39,488 nt of DNA from Agathobacter sp. (GTDB lineage Bacteria; Bacillota; Clostridia; Lachnospirales; Lachnospiraceae): assembly GCA_022767075.1 (NCBI GenBank), contig JALEPP010000144.1, positions 1 to 39,488 of the forward strand, given 5' to 3'. The notes below the pieces were generated by a model that worked only from the letters and a program-made list of their open reading frames with translations, searched no databases and was not told where the DNA came from. Each line of letters begins with the position of its first letter. Within the stretch, counting starts at the first letter, position 1. The position numbers and the translations under genes were made by a program. Positions 27,982 to 39,260 of the stretch are shown here, in pieces.

Positions 27982-29247
27982 TTATTCTTTTGTAGAAGTA
28001 TAGCAGATTCCATCCTTCTCATATAGGTCTGATATTTTCAGAGAATCATCGCTGTAGTGGATTACATAATCCTGTCCATAGACGTATTGGATTCCCTGGC
28101 TCTTCATGGTGGCAAGGTTTTCTACTGTCAAGGAATCCGTAAGAAAGCAATCCGCAGTGGCTAGCATAACATCTGCGCAGCTTTGGGAATCTGTATAGCA
28201 GACCAAAAGAGGAACTGCAGCCTTACACTGGCCAGTCTCAAAGCTGATATAACGGCTTAGGATACGATCCTTGTTGATTCCCACGTATTTGGTGCCATCG
28301 CTCTTATTTACCGGAAAATCACGGTATACAACCATACTTACCGGTGCTTGGTATCGCATTACCCCGGCTCCATAGATATTGGTATCCACACGGTCAAACA
28401 GATTCATGGAGTACTCCTGTACCCCTCTTGTATCCAGATTTCTGGTATATCCGTCATCACTTGAAATAATACCCTTTGTGAAACCTTTTTCCGCGATGGT
28501 ATCTGCAAGATAATCTGTAATAAACGCATTTTTCATCCAATAGAAGTGAATAAAGGAATGAAGCTCCTCTTCCTTGCAAAAGTCCAGATACTCCTTTGCA
28601 ACCTTAAGCATCACCCTGTTCTCCCCCAGAAGCTCAAGGTCAATCATTTCCGGATTAGAACCATAAGCTACAATATCCCTGTAAAGTCCTTGTATCTCCT
28701 CATTGTTTACCGGATCATACTCTACTGTTTGTGACAGATCGTCGCAACGGAATATGGAATCGTAATACTCATATAAGGTTCCAAGATACAGATAACGGTT
28801 CCCCGCCTTCTCCAGCTTCTCAAAGGCGGTGTACAACACAGGATCCACCTCAATTTCCTCGTTGGGATGCTGATTGATGTATGCCACATTGTGCACATCA
28901 TCGAAACGGGCGCTTTCCTGAAAAAGCTGATATGCAGTTTCTGTTGCCTGGGAATAAATCTGAATCAGAGCCTTCTTCTCTACGGACGCACTTTTTTCTC
29001 CGGTTCCTACTTCATATTGAAAAACAAACTCGTCACTGCAATTTGTTTGCGATGACGAGCTTGCATCAATTTCTGTCCAACCAGCATTGCCGGCAAGTAA
29101 ACCATTTACTCCAAAGTAAATCGCCACGCCTGCAACGGTTATCAAAACCAGTACCAGAATCAAACGTACCAATAGATTCTTCTCTGATAATTCGATTTTT
29201 TCCACAGGTCTTAGATTGGGTCTTTTATCCCTGGCTTCTCGGTTCAT
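27982..29247 (-). CDS. Membrane-anchored ApbE-like protein without the usual catalytic motifs
   Basis: One N-terminal helix (LLVRLILVLVLITVAGVAIYF) anchors an external domain of about 360 residues. The region SQATETAYQLFQES, NVAYINQHPNEEIEVDPVLY and LYLGTLYEYYDSIF matches the layout of the ApbE (FAD:protein FMN transferase) N-terminal half, and FITDYLADTIAEKGFTKGII the later helix-strand unit. The conserved DLGGIAKG and GGD-type metal residues of ApbE are not visible, so flavin transfer is unlikely. The assignment is by fold impression only. It follows oppF by 38 bases with AGGAGG before the ATG, so it is probably co-transcribed with the peptide transporter. Confidence 0.6.
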   Translation of the reverse strand: MNREARDKRPNLRPVEKIELSEKNLLVRLILVLVLITVAGVAIYFGVNGLLAGNAGWTEIDASSSSQTNCSDEFVFQYEVGTGEKSASVEKKALIQIYSQATETAYQLFQESARFDDVHNVAYINQHPNEEIEVDPVLYTAFEKLEKAGNRYLYLGTLYEYYDSIFRCDDLSQTVEYDPVNNEEIQGLYRDIVAYGSNPEMIDLELLGENRVMLKVAKEYLDFCKEEELHSFIHFYWMKNAFITDYLADTIAEKGFTKGIISSDDGYTRNLDTRGVQEYSMNLFDRVDTNIYGAGVMRYQAPVSMVVYRDFPVNKSDGTKYVGINKDRILSRYISFETGQCKAAVPLLVCYTDSQSCADVMLATADCFLTDSLTVENLATMKSQGIQYVYGQDYVIHYSDDSLKISDLYEKDGICYTSTKE

Positions 29248-29285: not shown

Positions 29286-30590
29286 TTATATAACTACAAG
29301 AATCAGTCCAATGAGCAGGATGGCAATTAACACGCCAATTACAATAAGACCGGCAACCGCACCCTTAATACACTTCTTGTAGTTTCGAATATGATTCTTT
29401 TTGCGGAAAATGAATCCCAAAATTAAGCCCACAATTGGAAGGAAGAATGAGAGTACTGTGTACCACATGCTTCCGGTATCATGGATTGGTGTTGCAAGGA
29501 ACTCTTCCTCGGCTTTGGTATCCACGATGTTCTCAATATTGTTGGAAAGGTGCTCCTCTCCCGGCTTGCGAATCTTGATAGATTTCAGTGGCTCTCCCTT
29601 TTCGCGGATTGCCTTATATTCTTCTATCTCCTTCTTGTTACCATATACCCAATGGTCATGTCCGATACATACAAACTCAGGCTTGTCAGTCTCATAATCA
29701 TGGATAGATGGATCATAGGTATAAAGGATCTTATTCTTCTCTAACTGAGGATCCGGAATTGGAATCGCTGAAATCAGAGAATGGGTATATGGATGAAGTG
29801 GGAAGTCGAACAACTCCTCTGCATCTGCTACCTCTACAATATGACCCTTGTAAATTACACCGATACGATCTGAAATGAAACGTACGATGGATAAATCATG
29901 AGCGATAAATAAGTAGGTAACGCCCTTTTCCTTCTGGAATTTCTTCATAAGGTTCAGAACCTGTGCACGAATGGAAACATCCAATGCAGAAATAGGCTCA
30001 TCCGCTACTACGAGCTCAGGCTCCATAACCATCGCACGGGCGATACCGATACGCTGGCGCTGTCCACCTGAGAATTCATGAGGGTAACGGGTCAGATGCT
30101 CAGGCAAAAGACCTACCTCATTAATCATATGTTCTACTTTTCTTACTCGATCTGCTTCGTTCTCATAGAGATGGAAGTTGTATAGTCCCTCGGAAATACT
30201 GTAATCTACAGTAGCACGCTCATTTAAGGAAGCGGCAGGATCCTGGAACACCATCTGAATGTTACGGATAACCTCGCGGTCAAGAGCTTTGGAAATCTTA
30301 CCGCTGATAGGTACTCCTTTGTATAAAATCCTACCTTTTGAAAGTGGGTTGACACGGATTACCGCACGACCGATGGTGGTCTTGCCGGATCCCGACTCAC
30401 CTACCAGAGAAAAGGTCTCTCCCTTGTAAATATCAAAGGAAGCGTCCTGAACTGCTTTTACCGTGTTATCTCCATTTCCAAAGGTGATATCAATATCCTG
30501 GATAGAAAGTAATACTTCTTTTCCATTTTCTGCAATAGGACCGTGCTCTGGAAATTGAGACGCACGCCCTTTTGTATCTTTATTTGCCAC
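29286..30590 (-). CDS. oppF: Oligopeptide ABC transporter ATPase OppF with C-terminal membrane hairpin
   Basis: The ATPase domain is complete: Walker [16 protein letters not shown]-loop [15 protein letters not shown], signature [15 protein letters not shown], Walker [13 protein letters not shown] and switch His in [10 protein letters not shown]. The usual OppF end ([20 protein letters not shown]) is followed by about 75 extra residues with two hydrophobic segments: [20 protein letters not shown], a basic linker, then [20 protein letters not shown]. This is unusual for an ATPase subunit and would tether it to the membrane. The start is a GTG at 30590 with AGGAG upstream. The length is 434 residues against about 320 usually. 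Confidence 0.92.
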
Positions 30591-30601
30591 GATTGAATCT
30601 C

Positions 30602-32350
30602 CTATATGTTAAATGCTTTTATCAGTTTCTCATGGATATTGTCGATAGCCTCAGGCTTCTCAATCTTAGGAGCACGAGGATCCAACAGCCATGTCTTTGC
30701 ATAATGTGTATCGGTTACCTTGAACATTGGTGGCTCCTTGAGCGTATCAATCTTAAGGCAATATGGGTTACGAGGTGCAAAAGCATCTCCAACGATATCA
30801 TTGTACAAAGAAGGTGGTGTACCAGTAATGGAATACAGAGTAGTATTTCTCTGAGCCAGCTGTGGCAGAGAAGAAAGAAGTGCCCAGGTATATGGATGAC
30901 GAGGGTCATAGAACACCTCTTCAACCTCACCTACCTCTACAATCTGTCCACCGTAAAGTACTGCTACACGATCTGCGATATTAGCAACTACACCAAGATC
31001 GTGGGTAATGAAAACAATGGTAAAGCCAAGCTCCTTCTGAAGGTCCTTCAACAGCTGAAGAATCTGTGCCTGAATGGTAACATCCAAAGCGGTGGTTGGC
31101 TCATCACAAATCAAAATCTTTGGCTGGCAAGACAGTGCGATAGCGATAACAATACGCTGTCTCATACCACCGGAATACTGGAACGGATAATCGTCAAAAC
31201 GCTGCTCCGGATGTGGAATACCAACCTTGTACATAAGATCAATGGCCTTTCTGCGAGCCTCTGACTCTGTGCAGCCCTGATGCTTGATAATGATGGAGGT
31301 AATCTGTTTACCAATGGTGATAATTGGGTTCAAGGAGGTCATTGGATCCTGGAATACGGTAGCAATCTTCTTACCACGAATCTGTGACCAATCCTTTCCG
31401 TCCTGAATCTTTGCGAGATTCAGAATACAGGTACCATGGTAACGTTCCTCGTTTTCATCTAAGTAGCGAACGCGGAAGGTAACCGGATCAAACACCTGAT
31501 TTCTCTGGTTCTCATCGTTTAAATCCACACCCATCTGCATTGCTTTTTTAAACTGCTTCTCAAGATTGTTGATGCATTTTCTACGTTTGGAATAGCTGAA
31601 ACGTCCAACAGAAAGGAAAATCTCCTTTGCAAGAATCTCGTTTCTCTCCATGGTCTCCTTGGAGATCTCAGCCTTAATCTCCTGCTCATGTTTCGCTTTG
31701 AGCTCTGCCATCTTCTTGTTGTAGGCTTCCAGATAAGCATGATCCTTAGCAAGGGCATCTTTTCTTGCTTTATCCCTGCCGGCAAACTCCTTTTCTTTTG
31801 CCTTGATCAATGCATCATACTCTTTTTCTTTTGTTTCGCAGGCTTTAATCTTATCCTTTTCTTTCTTTGGATCGTAAAGCTGCTTCTCGTTAAAGCACTC
31901 TGTCTTTTTGTGGCGAAGCTCCTTTAGCTCCTCTTCCTCTGCAGCCTTCTCCTCCGCAGACACAACCTCTTTTGCCTTTTTCTCAGCTTCCAGCTCCAAC
32001 ATCTGGCGATAGGTTGCAGCGCCAAACTCCAGCTTAGAATACTCATTGAGCTTCTGGGTCATGTGCTGGATTTCCTTCTCAGAATTAGAATCCTTCTTTA
32101 CAACCGTATCAGAAAGCTCTTCATCATTAAAAATAATATTTCCATTTCCAATGAAACCGTTGCTGTCAAGCATTCCTGCAAAGGTCTTGGTAAATACTGA
32201 TTTACCGGAACCGGACTCACCTACGATAGCGATAGACTCGTTCTCATAGATATCCAGTGATACACCACGAATAGCGGTAAGGACACGTCCGCGCACATGG
32301 AACTGTACCTTTAAATCGTCAATTGATAATAAAACCTTCTTGTTTTCCAT
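30602..32350 (-). CDS. oppD: Oligopeptide ABC transporter ATPase OppD with coiled-coil insertion
   Basis: This is a peptide-importer ATPase with a large insertion. Walker A GESGSGKS is at residues 44-51, but the Q-loop ([11 protein letters not shown]) starts only at 332. In ordinary OppD these are about 55 residues apart. Residues about 85-315 are a Lys/Glu/Ala-rich, helical insertion with heptad-like spacing ([36 protein letters not shown]). The rest is canonical: [36 protein letters not shown] and the C-terminal peptide-family region [15 protein letters not shown]. The ATG has AGGAGG upstream, nine bases after oppC. The length is 582 residues against about 330-350. Confidence 0.93.
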
Positions 32351-32359
32351 GATTGCCTC

Positions 32360-33328
32360 CTACATATGTGTTCTTGGATCTGATGCATCACCAAGGTTCT
32401 GTCCTACTACATAGAGAACAACCGTGATAATTGCAGAAATAACTACAGGGCTCCAGAACTCAAACTGCCAACCAGGAGTAACCATGGCACTTTCTGCCTC
32501 GAAAATCAAACGTCCAAGAGAACGCTCAGAAATACCCATACCGATGTAAGCTAAGAATACCTCATAAGAAATGTAAGAAGGAATCTCAGTAGCAAGCAGG
32601 GTTACGATTACCGAGGTCATAAACGGAAGAATATTCTTCATGGCAATCTTAATCGTAGATGTACCCAGACACTTGGATGCAAGGTTATACTCACGGTCAC
32701 GGATAATGATTACCTGAGTACGAATGAAGTATGCAATGGCAAGCCATCCCGTAATGGTAAGTGCAAGAACCATGGTCCAGAAGCTAGCCTTGAAAAGCAT
32801 AACCATTACGGACATGAATACCAGCTGTGGTACATTGGCAATAATGTTGTAGACTTCGGTCATTACAATATCGACCTTTTTTGAAAATCCCCAGACGGAA
32901 CCTACCACAACACCAACGGTCATATTGATAAGAGCACACATAAATGCCAGTGAAATAGAAATGCGGGATCCATTCCAGATTGCGTCAAAGGTAGATTCTC
33001 CGGACTTACCGGTTCCTAAGATATACTTCAAATGGAAACCATATTTGTCAATCGCCTTCGATGGTGTCAAATGCTTCGCTGTTGCATCAAGCAAGGAACC
33101 ATACTGATCGAACTCTGTCACCATTGGATAGATGTAAGCAAATGCAATTACAAAAATCAAGAGAGACAGAATAATAATATTGATTTTTTTCTTAAAGAAC
33201 ACACGGAACACTGACTGCCAGTAGGAATAACGTGGAGCAGTAATACGCTCAGACTCCAAATCGTTATGATCCACCTTGGCGAACAGTTCCTCTTCCGACA
33301 TGTTGAATTCGTCTAAATTAGTATTCAT
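32360..33328 (-). CDS. oppC: Oligopeptide ABC transporter permease OppC
   Basis: A standard 322-residue binding-protein-dependent permease. It has an N-terminal cytoplasmic tail, one helix (IIILSLLIFVIAFAYIYPMV), an external loop, then five more helices. The ATPase-contacting EAA loop reads REYNLASKCLGTSTIKIAMK with NILPFM. The C-terminus (VGQNLGDASDPR) is typical of OppC/DppC, including the GD.LRDALDPR-like end. It lies seven bases after oppB and uses AAAGGATAGG. It is the only Opp subunit here of ordinary size. Confidence 0.94.
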   Translation of the reverse strand: MNTNLDEFNMSEEELFAKVDHNDLESERITAPRYSYWQSVFRVFFKKKINIIILSLLIFVIAFAYIYPMVTEFDQYGSLLDATAKHLTPSKAIDKYGFHLKYILGTGKSGESTFDAIWNGSRISISLAFMCALINMTVGVVVGSVWGFSKKVDIVMTEVYNIIANVPQLVFMSVMVMLFKASFWTMVLALTITGWLAIAYFIRTQVIIIRDREYNLASKCLGTSTIKIAMKNILPFMTSVIVTLLATEIPSYISYEVFLAYIGMGISERSLGRLIFEAESAMVTPGWQFEFWSPVVISAIITVVLYVVGQNLGDASDPRTHM

Positions 33329-33335
33329 AAATTAA

Positions 33336-34907
33336 TTACCTATCCTTTGATGAGAATGAGATACGTGGATCTACCATTGAGATTAAAATGTCTCCTAAAA
33401 TTACTGATAAAACAGAAATCACTGCATAGAACAAAGTAACACCAATGATAACACCATTGTCGTATGTATTAATTGCCTTGGTAAGCAGGTTACCGGCACC
33501 AGGAACTACGTATACACGCTCTGTGATAATCGCACCGGTCAAGGCTACTAAAAGGCTGCCCGGAATACCATGCACAATTGGAATAATGGCATTCTTTAAT
33601 ACATGCTTTGTAAAAATCTCGTTTTCAGAAAGACCACCGGAACGAGCAAATTTCACGTAGTCGGAATTCATCTGGTCAATCATATAACGGCGCATCCACT
33701 TCATTAAATCTGCAATAGAACGCAATGCAAGTGATACCACCGGAAGCACAAATACAAGCTTCGTTGCAGCATCCATATCAAAGGTGGTTGGAAGTCCCAG
33801 CTCTCCACCGATTGCCTTGAAAAGGAAAATATAAGCTAAGGATGGCACTGCGATAATAAATACGATGTAACAGGTAAGTATCTTGTCTACTAATTTATCC
33901 TTATTTCTTGCCATTACAATTCCAAGGGGAACCCCAAGGAAGTACGCAAGTAAAATCGACATAATACCGATTACAAAGGAGTATCCAACCTTAGAAAAAC
34001 CGCTTTTCGATGTAGATACATTGGTGTAATCATCCACATAACGATCCTGTAGCACAAGAAGACTGTCTCTTGATCCCTCCACATAAGTTGCAGTATGAAG
34101 GTTGTCTGCCGAGTCTGCTACAAGTCCGGTAGGATAAGTAATGGTAGATTTCTTAAAGGAGCCCTGTGACTGGTTCATTGTATCAAATACATCTACACCA
34201 AGGTTTACAGAGTAGGAAGTACCAAGACTAATTTTGATAATATTCTGATGGAAATATGGGAACTGATCATCAAAGTACAGTAAGTATCGATTGGTGGTTC
34301 CATTTCCCATAATAGCCGGCGAAAATTTTTCCCCACCGTATGCAGGATCATGAAGAGTAAAGGTAATTCCCCTCTCTCCCACAATATTCTCTACATTGTG
34401 AATGCTGTCTACCTGCACCAGGTTACGAAGATATGCTCCAAGTCTTGTAAAAAGAGGAACATCTCTGTATGCAAACAAGGCCTGGTTACCACCGGAAGCA
34501 ACTTTTCTAGGAGATGCCATAACAGCATCCAGTCTCTTGACGGTGTAACCCTGACTCTTGTAATATTCGTTGAATTTTTGTACATACTCCTTAGTAAGGT
34601 CTGAGTCGTTCTCAGCTTTTCTACTAAGAGTAACTGCTTTCGACATGGTCTCTTCGTCAATCTCACCCTCTGCAAGAAGCATCTGTAAATACTCCGAGAA
34701 GGTTACGTAATCCAAATAACCATAGTTCTCCCATGTCTGATATTTGTATGTTATTTTCTGATTGTTATTGGTCTTTGTGTACTGAGAATCTTTCGCAAAA
34801 ATAAGGTTTCTGTCCATGATTCCATAAATCATCATCATAACGATTCCGATAACGATGATAATCGAACAGATACCTCTTAGAATTCGATTAACTAAATATT
34901 TTGTCAT
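33336..34907 (-). CDS. oppB: Oligopeptide ABC transporter permease OppB with large external insertion
   Basis: The first helix (ILRGICSIIIVIGIVMMMIY) is followed by about 290 residues of soluble sequence before the second helix (VGYSFVIGIMSILLAYFLGV). The remaining helices and the EAA loop (YVKFARSGGLSENEIFTKHV) are normal, ending in LGDILISMVDPRI. OppB is usually near 306 residues with a short loop here; this one has 523. The added domain should face outward and could contact the binding protein. The ATG at 34907 (GAGTGAT upstream) is preferred to upstream starts without a ribosome site. Confidence 0.9.
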   Translation of the reverse strand: MTKYLVNRILRGICSIIIVIGIVMMMIYGIMDRNLIFAKDSQYTKTNNNQKITYKYQTWENYGYLDYVTFSEYLQMLLAEGEIDEETMSKAVTLSRKAENDSDLTKEYVQKFNEYYKSQGYTVKRLDAVMASPRKVASGGNQALFAYRDVPLFTRLGAYLRNLVQVDSIHNVENIVGERGITFTLHDPAYGGEKFSPAIMGNGTTNRYLLYFDDQFPYFHQNIIKISLGTSYSVNLGVDVFDTMNQSQGSFKKSTITYPTGLVADSADNLHTATYVEGSRDSLLVLQDRYVDDYTNVSTSKSGFSKVGYSFVIGIMSILLAYFLGVPLGIVMARNKDKLVDKILTCYIVFIIAVPSLAYIFLFKAIGGELGLPTTFDMDAATKLVFVLPVVSLALRSIADLMKWMRRYMIDQMNSDYVKFARSGGLSENEIFTKHVLKNAIIPIVHGIPGSLLVALTGAIITERVYVVPGAGNLLTKAINTYDNGVIIGVTLFYAVISVLSVILGDILISMVDPRISFSSKDR

Positions 34908-34923
34908 AATTTTATCACTCATG

Positions 34924-34963
34924 AAAATGTTGCAAGAGAGTAGTCTCCCACTCCCTTGCAGCA
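34924..34963 (-). terminator. Leaky hairpin between oppA and oppB
   Basis: Two 14-base arms (34928-34941 and 34950-34963, core TTGCAAG) pair at 12 positions plus one G-U. Only TTTT follows on the minus strand. Such hairpins after binding-protein genes usually let part of the transcription continue and stabilise the upstream mRNA, giving more binding protein than permease. Confidence 0.6.
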
Positions 34964-34994
34964 TCGTTAATAGTTTATTTTTTTGGTACGTTTT

Positions 34995-37160
34995 TTAGTA
35001 GATACCGATGCATTTAATCATGTATCCGCTGTATTCTGGTAAGAATGTATTTAAGTAGGTTGAAGGATCTCCGTAGTCTGGACCCCATCCTGAAAGGTCA
35101 TATACATCGTAGTTAGCTTCCCATCCATAGTTGGTGAAGTATCCAGCATAGTACCACTCGTTTTCATTTGCACATGATACAAGGTTCACCTTTACGCAAT
35201 CTCCAAGAGAGTTCTCAACAGACTGTTTGAAAGCGTTTGCAAGGTTAGAGTAGGTTGGTAAGTTAGAAGCATATGGAAGGTCGAAGGTAATTGGGTTCTC
35301 TGCTGAGATTTCTACGCCTTCTGCCTTAAGCTCCTCGATACCTTTTGCAAGTTCAGCTGCTGCGAACTCTGGGTTGTACCATCCATCAAAGCCTGAGCAA
35401 GAATCAACTGCTGCTGCCTGGCCATCTCTCCATACGGTGATATCCATTCCATCAGCATCTAACTGGGCCTGAACAACCTGTCCGTAGTATGTTCCAGCTG
35501 GGAACTCTCCAAGTCCGTCAACAGTAACAGCTTCCTCTAATGATACAAAGTGTCCCGGTGTGTATGTATTGATTAAGTTCTTCTCTGCAAGATCATCACC
35601 GTTCTTCTGAGCGTTCCAAGCTTTACGATCCAATGCTGTACAGATTGCTCTACGGACATGTACATTCTGGAATGCTTTTGTTGTCTGCTCAATATCAGCT
35701 GCATCTCTTCCACTTACTACAGTAGTGGTATCGTTGGTGTTTGCAGTTGCATAACGATTTACGTTTAAGAATGCCATGTAAGAGGTAGCATCGGTTGATG
35801 AAGTAATAACTTCGTCATTGTCAAATAAGCCTTCGCTCTTAGCGATTTCTACTGTCTCAGTAGTAAGTGCACAGCTTGAAACAAGTCCTGATTTTACGTC
35901 CTCGTATACCTTTGTTGGGTCCTCACCACTTTCGTAGATGAAGTTAATGTTTGATACATTGATCTTTGAAGGATCATAGTAATGCTCGTTCTTAACAAAT
36001 TTGATTTCTTTTTCTACAGTAGCGCTTGAAACTGTGTATGGTCCACAGTAAGCGATATCATCCTTGGTCTGTCCGTACTGGCAGGTTGCATCGTACTCAG
36101 CACCGAATTTACCACCCTTTGACTCGTAGAATGAAGTACAAAGTGGCTGATAAGCGCTGTACTCAAGAGTAGTTAAGTAGTATGAGCATGGCTGAACTAA
36201 AGTGTATTCTACAGTGTAGTCATCTACAGCCTTTACTCCAACCTGATCCATTCCAACTTCACCTGCAAGGTACTCAGATACACCAACTACAACGCCGGCT
36301 TCAAGATCTCCAAGACCACTCTGAGTATCCATCATGTGCTGGAATCCGTTTACAAAGTCTTCTGCTTTAAGCTCTGCAAGTGGCTGTCCCTGTGAGTCAA
36401 CCCACTGTACACCCTCACGAAGCTTGAAGGTATAGGTAAGTCCATCATCAGATACTGTGTAGCTCTCAGCAAGTGCTGGCTGAAGCTGTCCTTCGCCGTC
36501 ATATTCCAAAAGTCCGTCTACACACTGGCTAAGTGGCTCGTTTGTGGTAGCACGTGAAGAAGCAAGTACATCCCAGGTCTCTGGATCTCCAGTGTATGGG
36601 TATGAGTAGGTATCAGCAAAGGTATATCCCTGATCGGTTAAGTACTGTTTCGCCCAATCATGGTAAGTTCCAGTACCTTTTAACTCTTCCCATTTAGCCT
36701 TCATAGCCTGAATGTCTGCGTTTTTGATTAATTCATTACATACGATTGCGCTGTGGAATCTAGTCTGATCTGTTCCCCAAAGAACGTAATCAAAAGAATA
36801 TGGAGCTACGTGAGTGATTCCGTAACGTCCTCCCTTTGAGGTCGTTGGAAGCATAACACCTGCCTCAAGCAATTTAGCTTCTGCTACAGCCATAAGAGCA
36901 TATCTCTCTGATACGGTCTCTGCTGCAAGTGCCTTGTCATACTCTGCCTTGAATTCACCTAATACCTTGTCATATAACTCTGCTGACTCAGCGCTATATG
37001 CTTCCATATCAGGTCCTTCATTTACAGCACCTTCTTCTGTTCCTACAGCTTGTTCTGTTCCTGCTGGTGCTTCTTCACCGGCTTCTTTTCCGCCGCCGCA
37101 AGCACACAGGCTGACACTCATAGCTGCCACGAGCATCAAACTTACGATTTTCTTCTTCAT
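34995..37160 (-). CDS. oppA: Peptide-binding lipoprotein OppA, apparently circularly permuted
   Basis: This is a family 5 extracellular solute-binding protein. The signal peptide ends in SLCAC with Cys21 as the lipid-modified residue, followed by a Glu/Gly/Ala-rich linker. The usual N-lobe (TYSYPYTGDPETWDVL, then LQPALAESYTVSDDGLTYTF) begins only near residue 183. The chain stops at residue 721, right after DYGDPSTYLNTFLPEYSGYM, where family members normally have about 100 more residues. Residues about 58-145 (SAELYDKVLGEF, SERYALMAVAEAKLLEAGVM, YGITHVAPYS) look like exactly that missing C-terminal part. The ATG at 37160 has AGGAGG upstream. The cluster position fixes its role as the peptide receptor. 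Confidence 0.9.
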   Translation of the reverse strand: MKKKIVSLMLVAAMSVSLCACGGGKEAGEEAPAGTEQAVGTEEGAVNEGPDMEAYSAESAELYDKVLGEFKAEYDKALAAETVSERYALMAVAEAKLLEAGVMLPTTSKGGRYGITHVAPYSFDYVLWGTDQTRFHSAIVCNELIKNADIQAMKAKWEELKGTGTYHDWAKQYLTDQGYTFADTYSYPYTGDPETWDVLASSRATTNEPLSQCVDGLLEYDGEGQLQPALAESYTVSDDGLTYTFKLREGVQWVDSQGQPLAELKAEDFVNGFQHMMDTQSGLGDLEAGVVVGVSEYLAGEVGMDQVGVKAVDDYTVEYTLVQPCSYYLTTLEYSAYQPLCTSFYESKGGKFGAEYDATCQYGQTKDDIAYCGPYTVSSATVEKEIKFVKNEHYYDPSKINVSNINFIYESGEDPTKVYEDVKSGLVSSCALTTETVEIAKSEGLFDNDEVITSSTDATSYMAFLNVNRYATANTNDTTTVVSGRDAADIEQTTKAFQNVHVRRAICTALDRKAWNAQKNGDDLAEKNLINTYTPGHFVSLEEAVTVDGLGEFPAGTYYGQVVQAQLDADGMDITVWRDGQAAAVDSCSGFDGWYNPEFAAAELAKGIEELKAEGVEISAENPITFDLPYASNLPTYSNLANAFKQSVENSLGDCVKVNLVSCANENEWYYAGYFTNYGWEANYDVYDLSGWGPDYGDPSTYLNTFLPEYSGYMIKCIGIY

Positions 37161-37246
37161 AAGAATTCCTCCTAAAAATTTATCTTTAACAAAAGATCCA
37201 AGGACCTTTTTGCTAAATTCCTTTTTGTCCCCATTATAAACGAATA

Positions 37247-37537: not shown

Positions 37538-39211
37538 TTATAATGCCTTTTTCGAAAGCTCCCTAACCAGGTTTTCAATGCAGCCATCCTCAAACGGACT
37601 CATTAATCCCGATTCCTTGATCACGTTTACAAAGAAGTCCTTGGCTGACGCACAACAAAGCTTCAGATAGTTATCCCATGCCATCTCAAAGTCTTTGTCC
37701 ATCATCACCTTAAACTGCATTGCACAGATGCTTGCCAGCACGTAATCAATATAGTAGAAAGGTGTCTGGAAGATATGACCCTGTCTCTGCCAGAAGCCTC
37801 CGTTTCCAAAGAACGGATCGTTGTCGTAGTCCAGATGTGGTCTGTAGGTTTCCTCCAGTTTCTTCCACACCTCCTTGCGCTCTGCAGGGGTGTAGTCCGG
37901 ATTTGCATATACAATGTGCTGGAACTCATCTACCATACATCCGTACGGAACAAAGATGCAGGCATCTGCCATGTGCATTTTTAGGTAATCCCCACTTCTA
38001 TCTCCAAAGAATTTATCCATCCACTGATAAGTAAAGTATTCCATGGACATAGAATGAATCTCCGCAGTCTCCATGGTGATGTCCTGATGCTCCAAAATCT
38101 CCGCATTGCGCACAAGGTATCCCTGAAACGCATGTCCGCACTCATGGGTAATCACATCCACATCGGCATTGGTTCCGTTAAAATTGGCAAAAATAAACGG
38201 CGATTTGTAGTTTGGAATATAGGTCATATATCCACCCTGCTGTTTGGTCTTTCTGCCCAATACGTCAAAGAGCTCATTCTCCATCATAAAGTCAAAAAAT
38301 TCAGCCGTCTCCACAGACAATTGGTGATACATATCCTGTCCGGCCTTTAAGATTTCGTCCGGAGTACCTATTGGAGCCGGATTTCCGTTGTTAAAGTACA
38401 CATCATTGTCGTAGTATTTGAGAGAATCCAATCCAAGCTCCTGTTTTCTGGCCTCATGAAGCTTGGTGGCAAAAGGAACAAAGCTCTCTTTTACCTGGGT
38501 ACGGAATTTTTCTACCATGGCCTGATCATAGCAGTTTCTTCCCATTCTATAGTAAGCAAGCGGAATATAGTTCTCATATCCCATCTCCTTTGCCTGCTTA
38601 GTACGGTTTGCTACCATCCTGTCATAAATCTCATCAATCTCATCTGTTACCGACAAGAAATAATCACTTACTGCCTTCCATGCTGCCTTTCTCACTTCTC
38701 TGTCATTGTTTCGCAAAAACGGAGTCATAAGCGAAAGATTGTATTCACCGCCCTGGAATGGAATTTTTGCTGTGGCAATCAGCTTGTCATAACGGCTAAC
38801 AAGGGCATTCTCTTCCTGCATCAGCGGAATAATCTTTGGATCAAAGGCTTTCAGGCTAATCTCAATATTCTTGAATGCCACCTTTCCAATCTTCTCCTCA
38901 AGCACATCCCTGTAAGGAGATTCAAAAAGGAGCTTGTGATACTCATTGTCCAAGCCTGTGATAACCGGAAGAACCTCATCGTAGAAATCATTCTCTTTCT
39001 CATAGAAGGGATCTGTGGTGTCAATAGAATGGCGAACCTGCGCTAAGGTAATATTGGTCTTAACATCCTCAATCAGCTTGTAGTAATCCTTGTGTACTTC
39101 AAACTGCTCCTCGCCCGACGAAGCCGCCTTTACGCGTTCCATAAGCTTTGAATAAGCCTCTTTTACCTCTTCCAGATCTACTCTGGTGTATGGCATCTCT
39201 GTAAATTTCAT
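37538..39211 (-). CDS. pepF: M3-family oligoendopeptidase F
   Basis: This cytoplasmic zinc metallopeptidase cleaves short peptides. The M3 motif is intact: VITHECGHAFQGYL with the HExxH zinc ligands, and the third ligand Glu in the following helix TMETAEIHSMSMEYF. The substrate-binding C-terminal segments YIDYVLASICAMQF and NYLKLCCASAKDFF match the PepF family. From the ATG at 39211 (GGGAAGAGGA upstream) it has 557 residues, normal for clostridial forms. A GTG at 39244 would add 11 basic residues. It sits directly before the opp operon, so it probably degrades imported peptides. Confidence 0.93.
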   Translation of the reverse strand: MKFTEMPYTRVDLEEVKEAYSKLMERVKAASSGEEQFEVHKDYYKLIEDVKTNITLAQVRHSIDTTDPFYEKENDFYDEVLPVITGLDNEYHKLLFESPYRDVLEEKIGKVAFKNIEISLKAFDPKIIPLMQEENALVSRYDKLIATAKIPFQGGEYNLSLMTPFLRNNDREVRKAAWKAVSDYFLSVTDEIDEIYDRMVANRTKQAKEMGYENYIPLAYYRMGRNCYDQAMVEKFRTQVKESFVPFATKLHEARKQELGLDSLKYYDNDVYFNNGNPAPIGTPDEILKAGQDMYHQLSVETAEFFDFMMENELFDVLGRKTKQQGGYMTYIPNYKSPFIFANFNGTNADVDVITHECGHAFQGYLVRNAEILEHQDITMETAEIHSMSMEYFTYQWMDKFFGDRSGDYLKMHMADACIFVPYGCMVDEFQHIVYANPDYTPAERKEVWKKLEETYRPHLDYDNDPFFGNGGFWQRQGHIFQTPFYYIDYVLASICAMQFKVMMDKDFEMAWDNYLKLCCASAKDFFVNVIKESGLMSPFEDGCIENLVRELSKKAL

Positions 39212-39240
39212 TCCTCTTCCCTCTTTCCTGCGTTGCTTTA

Positions 39241-39260
39241 GCACTTTAGTACTCTAGTGC
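39241..39260. promoter_or_regulatory. Imperfect palindrome before pepF
   Basis: A 20-base inverted repeat with GCACT and AGTGC ends and a central AGTACT; 8 of 10 positions are symmetric. It lies 30 bases before the pepF start codon, a likely operator or leader hairpin. A clear -35/-10 pair was not found beside it. Confidence 0.4.

Follow-up and report, generated by a model that had tools for sequence, protein, structure and literature searches.

The closest described relatives of the protein reported here are the peptide receptors AmiA, AliB, AliC and AliD of Streptococcus (PF00496, cluster C). In AliD, domain I comprises residues 29-63, 191-296 and 583-617, domain II residues 64-190 and domain III residues 297-582, helix alpha19 spans residues 622-652, and W498 and D501 contact the amino end of the peptide (PMC11192437). 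We analysed a stretch of 39,488 nucleotides from Agathobacter sp. (contig JALEPP010000144.1 of assembly GCA_022767075.1; hereafter the window), in which the gene at 34995..37160 encodes, in all likelihood, a naturally circularly permuted peptide-binding lipoprotein of the Ami/Opp type. The window protein resembles the Streptococcus receptors in its whole-length homology, its lipobox, a Trp/Asp motif, an operon for an AmiCDEF-type importer and, by position, a helix at the place of alpha19. It differs from them in the order of its segments, in the position of the lipid anchor, in a C-terminus that follows DYGDP, and in the internal location of the alpha19 equivalent.

Circular permutation is considered uncommon among natural proteins, and ideas on its origin and persistence are mostly inferred. 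The one natural precedent recognised among ATP-binding cassette (ABC) binding proteins is Treponema pallidum Tp0684 (MglB-2), a glucose receptor that is both lipid-anchored and circularly permuted and that still binds its sugar and changes shape (PMC4990184). Its authors proposed the name 'Type Ic / cluster Bc', raised tethering as a possible cause, and placed relatives in many Gram-positive and gut bacteria (PMC4990184). The window protein is like Tp0684 in being a natural circular permutation of a lipid-anchored ABC binding protein. Tp0684, however, is a cluster B sugar binder of another sequence family, and its first three N-lobe strands lie at the C-terminus, a rotation in the opposite direction (PMC4990184). 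Assignment to cluster Bc was considered and rejected, since the window protein is PF00496/Ami-like by sequence; it would be the cluster C analogue of Tp0684, with the anchor on the other lobe and with three origins. In a literature search by titles and abstract openings, with most subscription papers beyond its reach, no earlier report of a permuted OppA/Ami-type receptor was recognised.

Another related system is represented by the models NF043077 (OppA) and NF043079 (OppD), which, judging by their MMSYN1 names, we take to be Mollicutes models. The OppD-like protein of the window, with its insert, matches the latter near full length. The closing segment of ordinary receptors, which lies at the front of the window protein and is called the moved segment below, matches by itself positions 784-886 of the 896 of NF043077 (expectation value (E) 3.5e-5); in that model, unlike in the window protein, the segment stands at the C-terminus, the ordinary order.

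Segment order of the window receptor

The gene and the parts of its product are laid out as follows.

34995..37160, minus strand: receptor gene, translated as a 721-residue lipoprotein with its ATG start at 37160
37168..37173, minus strand: ribosome-binding site AGGAGG, lying 7 bases ahead of the ATG, read from the letters
37098..37160, minus strand: signal peptide and lipobox (LCAC), residues 1-21, assigned from sequence; Cys21 is the predicted lipid anchor
37002..37097, minus strand: low-complexity spacer, residues 22-53, assigned from sequence
36834..37001, minus strand: moved segment part 1, about residues 54-109, the counterpart of the C-terminal end of AliD domain III (lobe 2) by the alignment with AliD 529-609 and by profile match
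36732..36833, minus strand: moved segment part 2, about residues 110-143, equivalent to the last domain I piece (AliD 583-617) by the AliD alignment
36615..36731, minus strand: alpha19 equivalent and linker, about residues 144-182, alpha19 being assigned by position
34998..36614, minus strand: core, residues 183-721, by the PF00496 match and the matches to AliD, AliC, AmiA and AliB
34995..34997, minus strand: stop codon of the receptor gene

The initial annotation, made from the letters, had described a clean frame with a good ribosome-binding site and an N-lobe beginning near residue 183. The single 721-residue frame and the site AGGAGG agree with this, and both the translation and the AliD match place the start of the N-lobe at about 183. 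Its count of 13 residues between the motif DYGDPSTYLNTFL (residues 695-707) and the end of the chain needs correction to 14, as the new C-terminus is at 721. The segment SAELYDKVLGEF...VAPYS occupies residues 59-122, and part 2 of the moved segment takes in the region aligned with the AliD pocket residues I603 and N608. The old C-terminus is connected with the old N-terminus by the linker LKGTGTYxxWxKxYLxxxGYTxxD. Within the core the order is the first piece of domain I, domain II, the second piece of domain I, and most of domain III. Cys21 is invariant across A1, an alignment of ten sequences.

The core is readily recognised as an ordinary receptor. PF00496 (SBP_bac_5) matches residues 226-708 with 163.7 bits against a cut-off of 32.4 (E 8.6e-48), reaching position 362 of the 368 of this 'Middle' model. 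In a phmmer search of PDB sequences, residues 183-720 pair with AliD chain 6-500 (whole-sequence E 6.4e-73). AliD, AliC, AmiA and AliB are the top four of 49 sequences listed (E 6.4e-73 to 3.2e-71), followed by a fifth at 3.1e-28. The chains of these four pneumococcal receptors, 626-638 residues long, extend more than 100 residues beyond the point where the window protein ends. The closing segment of SBP_bac_5 proteins is absent from the C-terminus, where the chain stops at 721, and is found at about residues 54-182 instead.

Several comparisons identify this front segment. The same phmmer search gave a second, out-of-order stretch pairing residues 81-159 with AliD chain 529-609 (independent expectation value (i-E) 0.2), and likewise residues 67-161 with AliC 520-617 (i-E 0.085). 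When the moved segment alone (117 residues) was searched against 177,635 PDB sequences, only three matches were obtained up to E 10, and these were the C-termini of AliB, AliC and AliD (E 0.0027, 0.0036 and 0.0081). In profile-profile comparison, where each E holds for one single comparison, a profile of 31 moved segments matched columns 475-573 of 590 of a profile of 42 ordinary Ami-type receptors with a probability of 98.5% (E 2.5e-15). The profile of ordinary OppA-type receptors was matched less strongly, at columns 438-486 of its 512 (57%, E 1e-4), and the permuted cores showed no second segment copy (1%). When the window protein was compared by BLAST with five ordinary relatives, all five gave two out-of-order stretches, the second with E from 0.002 to 5e-9; with L099 an additional third stretch appeared at chance level (E 0.068). 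The initial annotation had proposed searching the segment against SBP_bac_5. That check proved uninformative: PF00496 is a 'Middle' model, and the segment alone has no match to it. Pfam returned for the segment alone only Glyco_hydro_12 and TSNAXIP1_N (E 0.12 and 0.15), unrelated families which were taken as chance hits.

Some observations weigh against a permutation. Pairwise, the moved segment is only 22-34% identical to ordinary receptors, its i-E within the whole-protein PDB search is weak for both AliD and AliC, and the second BLAST stretch reaches just 0.002 for L099. Because of this low pairwise identity, the permutation draws its strength from the profiles, from position and from how many cases there are. 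The ordinary Ami set of the profile test was recognised partly by the segment lying after the core, so that the PDB searches are the unbiased test. The equivalence with alpha19 leans on position more than on sequence. A collinear hhalign alignment with ordinary receptors covered the core alone, though this is expected for a permutation, and a single-sequence AlphaFold model has low confidence (mean predicted local distance difference test (pLDDT) 36, predicted template modelling score (pTM) 0.25). Finally, no intermediate with a segment at both ends was present among the classified proteins. On balance, the window protein can be classed by homology, not by order, as a member of SBP_bac_5 and cluster C, and all receptor parts are present once, rotated relative to the ordinary-order homologues.

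Distribution of the order and two further permutations

A search with the window protein gave a full-length match in 11 of 62 genomes of the genus, its own counted, and a twelfth (G048) held fragments only. In its own genome, which is 83.7% complete, nothing besides the gene itself matched at E <= 0.001. The nine other members of A1 share the segment order at 46-57% identity. Searches with A1 found matches over most of the permuted length in 14 of 397 genomes sampled from the family, one of the 14 (G136) being divided over two contigs, in 12 of 392 from the order, 5 of 391 from the class and 2 of 348 from the phylum. These counts are rough lower bounds, because the samples are nested and overlapping, each including the window genome, and only two or three candidates were scored per genome.

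Hidden Markov models of segment and core were then applied to the reading frames of the fetched loci. The segment preceded the core in 33 loci and followed it in 43, while 38 lacked a segment match with this model. Counting the window protein, the 33 permuted loci give 32 distinct proteins, as L011 and L033 hold the same gene; a contig end truncates L044. Among the 38, a second segment model placed the segment C-terminally in 27 (including six seeds of that model, and L094 weakly) and near the N-terminus in sets of three and two, here called types II and III; the last six frames were partial or broken. The 32 proteins with the window's order (type I) span three family-level groups. All classified proteins carry one segment each, and two fused genes were therefore rejected as an explanation. 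Permuted receptors also lie on long contigs of 3.1 Mb (G010 C1) and 4.1 Mb (G683 C1). The same order on long contigs and in many proteins argues against an assembly error. A frameshift or truncation was likewise rejected, given the clean frame and the conserved order. The initial annotation was right that this is not simply a truncation, as the missing part is found at the front, and its reading of the order as C-part, N-lobe, C-lobe, a natural circular permutation, is backed by the sequence, the profiles, the 32 distinct proteins and the ordinary-order relatives.

Among plasmid records, 1003 matched, none with 80% of the protein in one place, and the best places listed were 24-25% identical. 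Two scans of viral contigs gave no relative, and a search of genome contigs gave one distant ordinary OppA (L031). The permuted receptor at L039:1426-3633 (G259) has a signal resembling that of twin-arginine translocation (SRRDFMKG) ahead of its lipobox, unlike the other permuted receptors compared. Four ordinary-order Ami-type receptors, L102, L104, L105 and L107 (G1163, G1426, G1279 and G1332), have an extra N-terminal region of about 130 residues, which we take to resemble a copper-amine-oxidase-type domain.

Type II consists of L086, L087 and L088 (G809, G863 and G915), from three genomes in two family-level groups. In its chain the lipobox is followed by the second half of domain III, in which WGPDYNDPMTF and the C-segment are included, and then by the N-lobe, and the protein ends in KELGLDK; the cut lies inside domain III, before the LPTxKxL strand. 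Against the ordinary L085, residues 211-557 of L088 pair with 32-398 and residues 35-211 with 381-556. A search of three genomes of that order for more such forms returned only the two known ones. In G809 the type II receptor is followed by apparent OppBCDF genes (L140, by eye).

Type III occurs in the window's own genus, as L023 in G008 and L024 in G039 (also L136). Residues 127-565 of L023 pair with 44-489 of the ordinary L021 at 72% identity, and residues 45-118 with 492-565 at 73%. The receptors closest to type III, in the genomes G034, G045 and G026, share 71-73% identity with it in the common core and have the ordinary order; L021, L026 and L019 are such nearest relatives, OppA-type receptors of the genus and of the same family. 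By eye from lists of open reading frames, the G045 region (ordinary L019) and the type III region have the transporter genes upstream and several of the genes downstream in common. The full permuted length is matched in 2 of the 17 genus genomes that have a match at 1e-80 or better, and tblastn of the 1.5 kb after the type III gene found no leftover ordinary C-segment. The type III permutation is recent.

With all sequences restored to the ordinary order (105 rows, after removal of eight loci that were partial, broken or duplicates), type I formed one clade of 31 rows with a Shimodaira-Hasegawa-like approximate likelihood ratio (SH-aLRT) of 100, and types II and III fell apart from each other within the OppA-like receptors. 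A tree from the first 330 residues, which are naturally contiguous, agreed (type I 100/98, type II 98/93, type III 100/98). Its 59 rows comprised 24 of the 31 type I sequences, all five of types II and III, and 30 hand-picked from 69 ordinary ones. Three order changes are required on the tree. Forcing the permuted forms together costs 361 log units, with an approximately unbiased test p-AU of 1.65e-50 that is nominal, since the permuted group was named after seeing a tree. Circular permutation thus appears to have arisen at least three times in this receptor family, and a single origin is rejected.

This one receptor family offers an old permutation kept across three family-level groups, another with a different cut point, and a young one that can be compared with 71-73% identical ordinary relatives in what seems the same gene neighbourhood. 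With such a set one can test directly whether an ABC receptor is affected by which of its lobes carries the membrane tether, and how permutations come to be fixed. The PF00496 model stops short of the moved segment, so permuted and ordinary forms would receive the same label in domain annotation.

The lipid anchor and the importer genes

The position of the new termini was read from the AliD alignment, in which the tryptophan at chain 473 is W498, so that chain index plus 25 gives AliD numbering. In this numbering the window protein breaks off at about AliD 525 and is taken up again by the front segment at about AliD 540-554, which puts both new termini in domain III, that is, in lobe 2. With the cut there, the lipidated Cys leads into lobe 2, not lobe 1. 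The type II and III cuts likewise seem to lie within domain III, and the lipid anchor should have moved from lobe 1 to lobe 2 in all three permutation types. W692 and D695, equivalent to AliD W498 and D501, are kept in 31/31 permuted sequences, as are G129 and D131 of the moved segment; G162 and G164 of the linker are kept in 28/31. The spacer behind the anchor has a median of 45 residues in permuted Ami-type receptors (measured in 28 of 31), compared with 17 in ordinary ones (40 of 42; p 1e-6, ignoring kinship), and the longer spacer may leave ordinary docking unchanged, where the initial annotation had proposed that moving the anchor would reorient the receptor on the transporter. For the pneumococcal system, an AlphaFold model is described in which one AmiC extracellular domain is wedged between the lobes and another lies on lobe 1 only, while AmiD contacts lobe 2 (PMC11192437).

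The genes around the receptor are the following.

33336..34964, minus strand: AmiC/OppB-like permease in which a large insert precedes the transporter domain; PF00528 matches only at 344-536 of 542
32360..33328, minus strand: AmiD/OppC-like permease (PF00528, OppC_N)
30602..32350, minus strand: AmiE/OppD-like ATPase that carries about 220 inserted residues; PF00005 matches in two stretches
29286..30590, minus strand: AmiF/OppF-like ATPase with a C-terminal hydrophobic tail
27982..29247, minus strand: accessory gene encoding 421 residues, in which a single hydrophobic stretch is seen by eye close to the N-terminus
37538..39244, minus strand: M3-family peptidase (PF01432), upstream of the receptor gene

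The insert of the AmiE-like protein lies between the two ATPase-domain stretches and looks charged and coiled-coil-like by eye. The tail of the AmiF-like protein measures about 100-120 residues and contains two hydrophobic stretches, which would suit an ATPase that is itself anchored in the membrane. The protein of the accessory gene had no match in Pfam and NCBIfam searches; the gene is possibly an accessory part of the importer.

We compared 17 permuted-receptor regions from 16 genomes with six ordinary regions, lengths being taken from stop to stop. The AmiC-like gene adjoins the permuted receptor in 16 of 17 regions and has 525-582 residues in all 16, against 317-346 in five of the six ordinary regions and 500 in the sixth, G1429. 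AmiE has 584-630 residues in the 15 permuted regions where it is present (L156 ends before it), compared with 348-368 in five ordinary regions and 261 in L162, at a contig end. The permuted regions hold an AmiF of 434-459 residues with a hydrophobic tail in 14 of the 15 where it is present. The remaining one, G306, on the deepest branch of the type I clade, has an AmiF of 342 residues that lacks the tail, and in the ordinary regions AmiF has 314-342 residues and no tail in the five where it was seen. Relatives of the accessory gene occur in 12 of the 17 permuted regions, and of the M3 peptidase in 4.

Competing explanations and proposed origin

That the segment order is an artefact of a mis-joined contig or of two adjacent genes merged in annotation can practically be dismissed: the genome is incomplete and in 180 contigs, one of them the window, but the order recurs in nine A1 members and in 32 distinct proteins, within a clean single frame that has its own ribosome-binding site. 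The N-terminal segment might instead be an added, separate regulatory or spacer domain in front of a C-terminally truncated receptor that works alone. The core by itself does match Ami receptors very strongly, and the structure model is of too low confidence to count against a separate domain. This explanation is nevertheless highly improbable, as the segment is homologous to exactly the missing part, occurs once per classified protein, covers the equivalents of domain I pocket residues and, in type III, is 73% identical to an ordinary C-terminus. Slightly less remote, though still improbable, is a swap between molecules, a dimer whose chains are each completed by the N-terminal segment of their partner. 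AliC is reported as a domain-swapped dimer in crystals and as dimeric in solution (PMC11192437), and new termini could favour swapping. The conserved, direct linker from segment to N-lobe, however, suits an intramolecular fold, and the present data contain no sign of dimers.

A further question is whether the circular permutation has changed how the receptor works with its importer. The new anchor position could have altered the seat of the receptor, the AmiC insert, AmiE insert and AmiF tail having co-evolved with it. Long AmiC (16/16), long AmiE (15/15) and tailed AmiF (14/15) do go with permuted receptors, and among the ordinary regions there is no long AmiE (six seen) and no tailed AmiF (five seen), and AmiC is short in 5/6. 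We regard such co-evolution as unlikely, because long AmiC also adjoins an ordinary receptor in G1429 and pneumococcal AmiC has 498 residues (PMC11192437). The AmiE-like protein, moreover, matches NF043079 near full length (717 bits, cut-off 740), which indicates that its insert is not tied to permutation. The deepest-branching permuted receptor has an untailed AmiF, and association by descent accounts equally well for the data. Tentatively, and with somewhat more room for it, anchoring on lobe 2 might bring a lasting advantage, for example easier clam-shell opening and closing or a different hand-over to the importer; this would have led to at least three Clostridia-type permutations, all with the anchor on lobe 2, with the importer rebuilt alongside in the window's lineage.

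For the permutation itself, an ancestor would have run in the ordinary order, from the anchor through the domain I/II lobe and domain III to the C-terminal segment that leads back into domain I, and then alpha19. Its last ~130 residues would have been relocated to the front, the conserved linker now tying the old C-terminus to the old N-terminus. The likely route is a tandem gene duplication followed by fusion, after which copy 1 lost its front and copy 2 its tail, a scheme that the recent, two-genome type III fits. The chain would very probably fold into the same bilobed receptor. The Trp/Asp pair that is kept would hold the amino end of the peptide. Transport is probably as in Ami: the operon suggests that peptides would be handed to the adjoining AmiCDEF-type importer, and the neighbouring peptidase would use the imported peptides.

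A permuted receptor at 10256-12469 of L138 (G010) has no importer genes in the 16 kb fetched. The same genome carries a second permuted receptor within a full operon (L139), an arrangement that can be likened to the AliA/AliB paralogues working on one permease.

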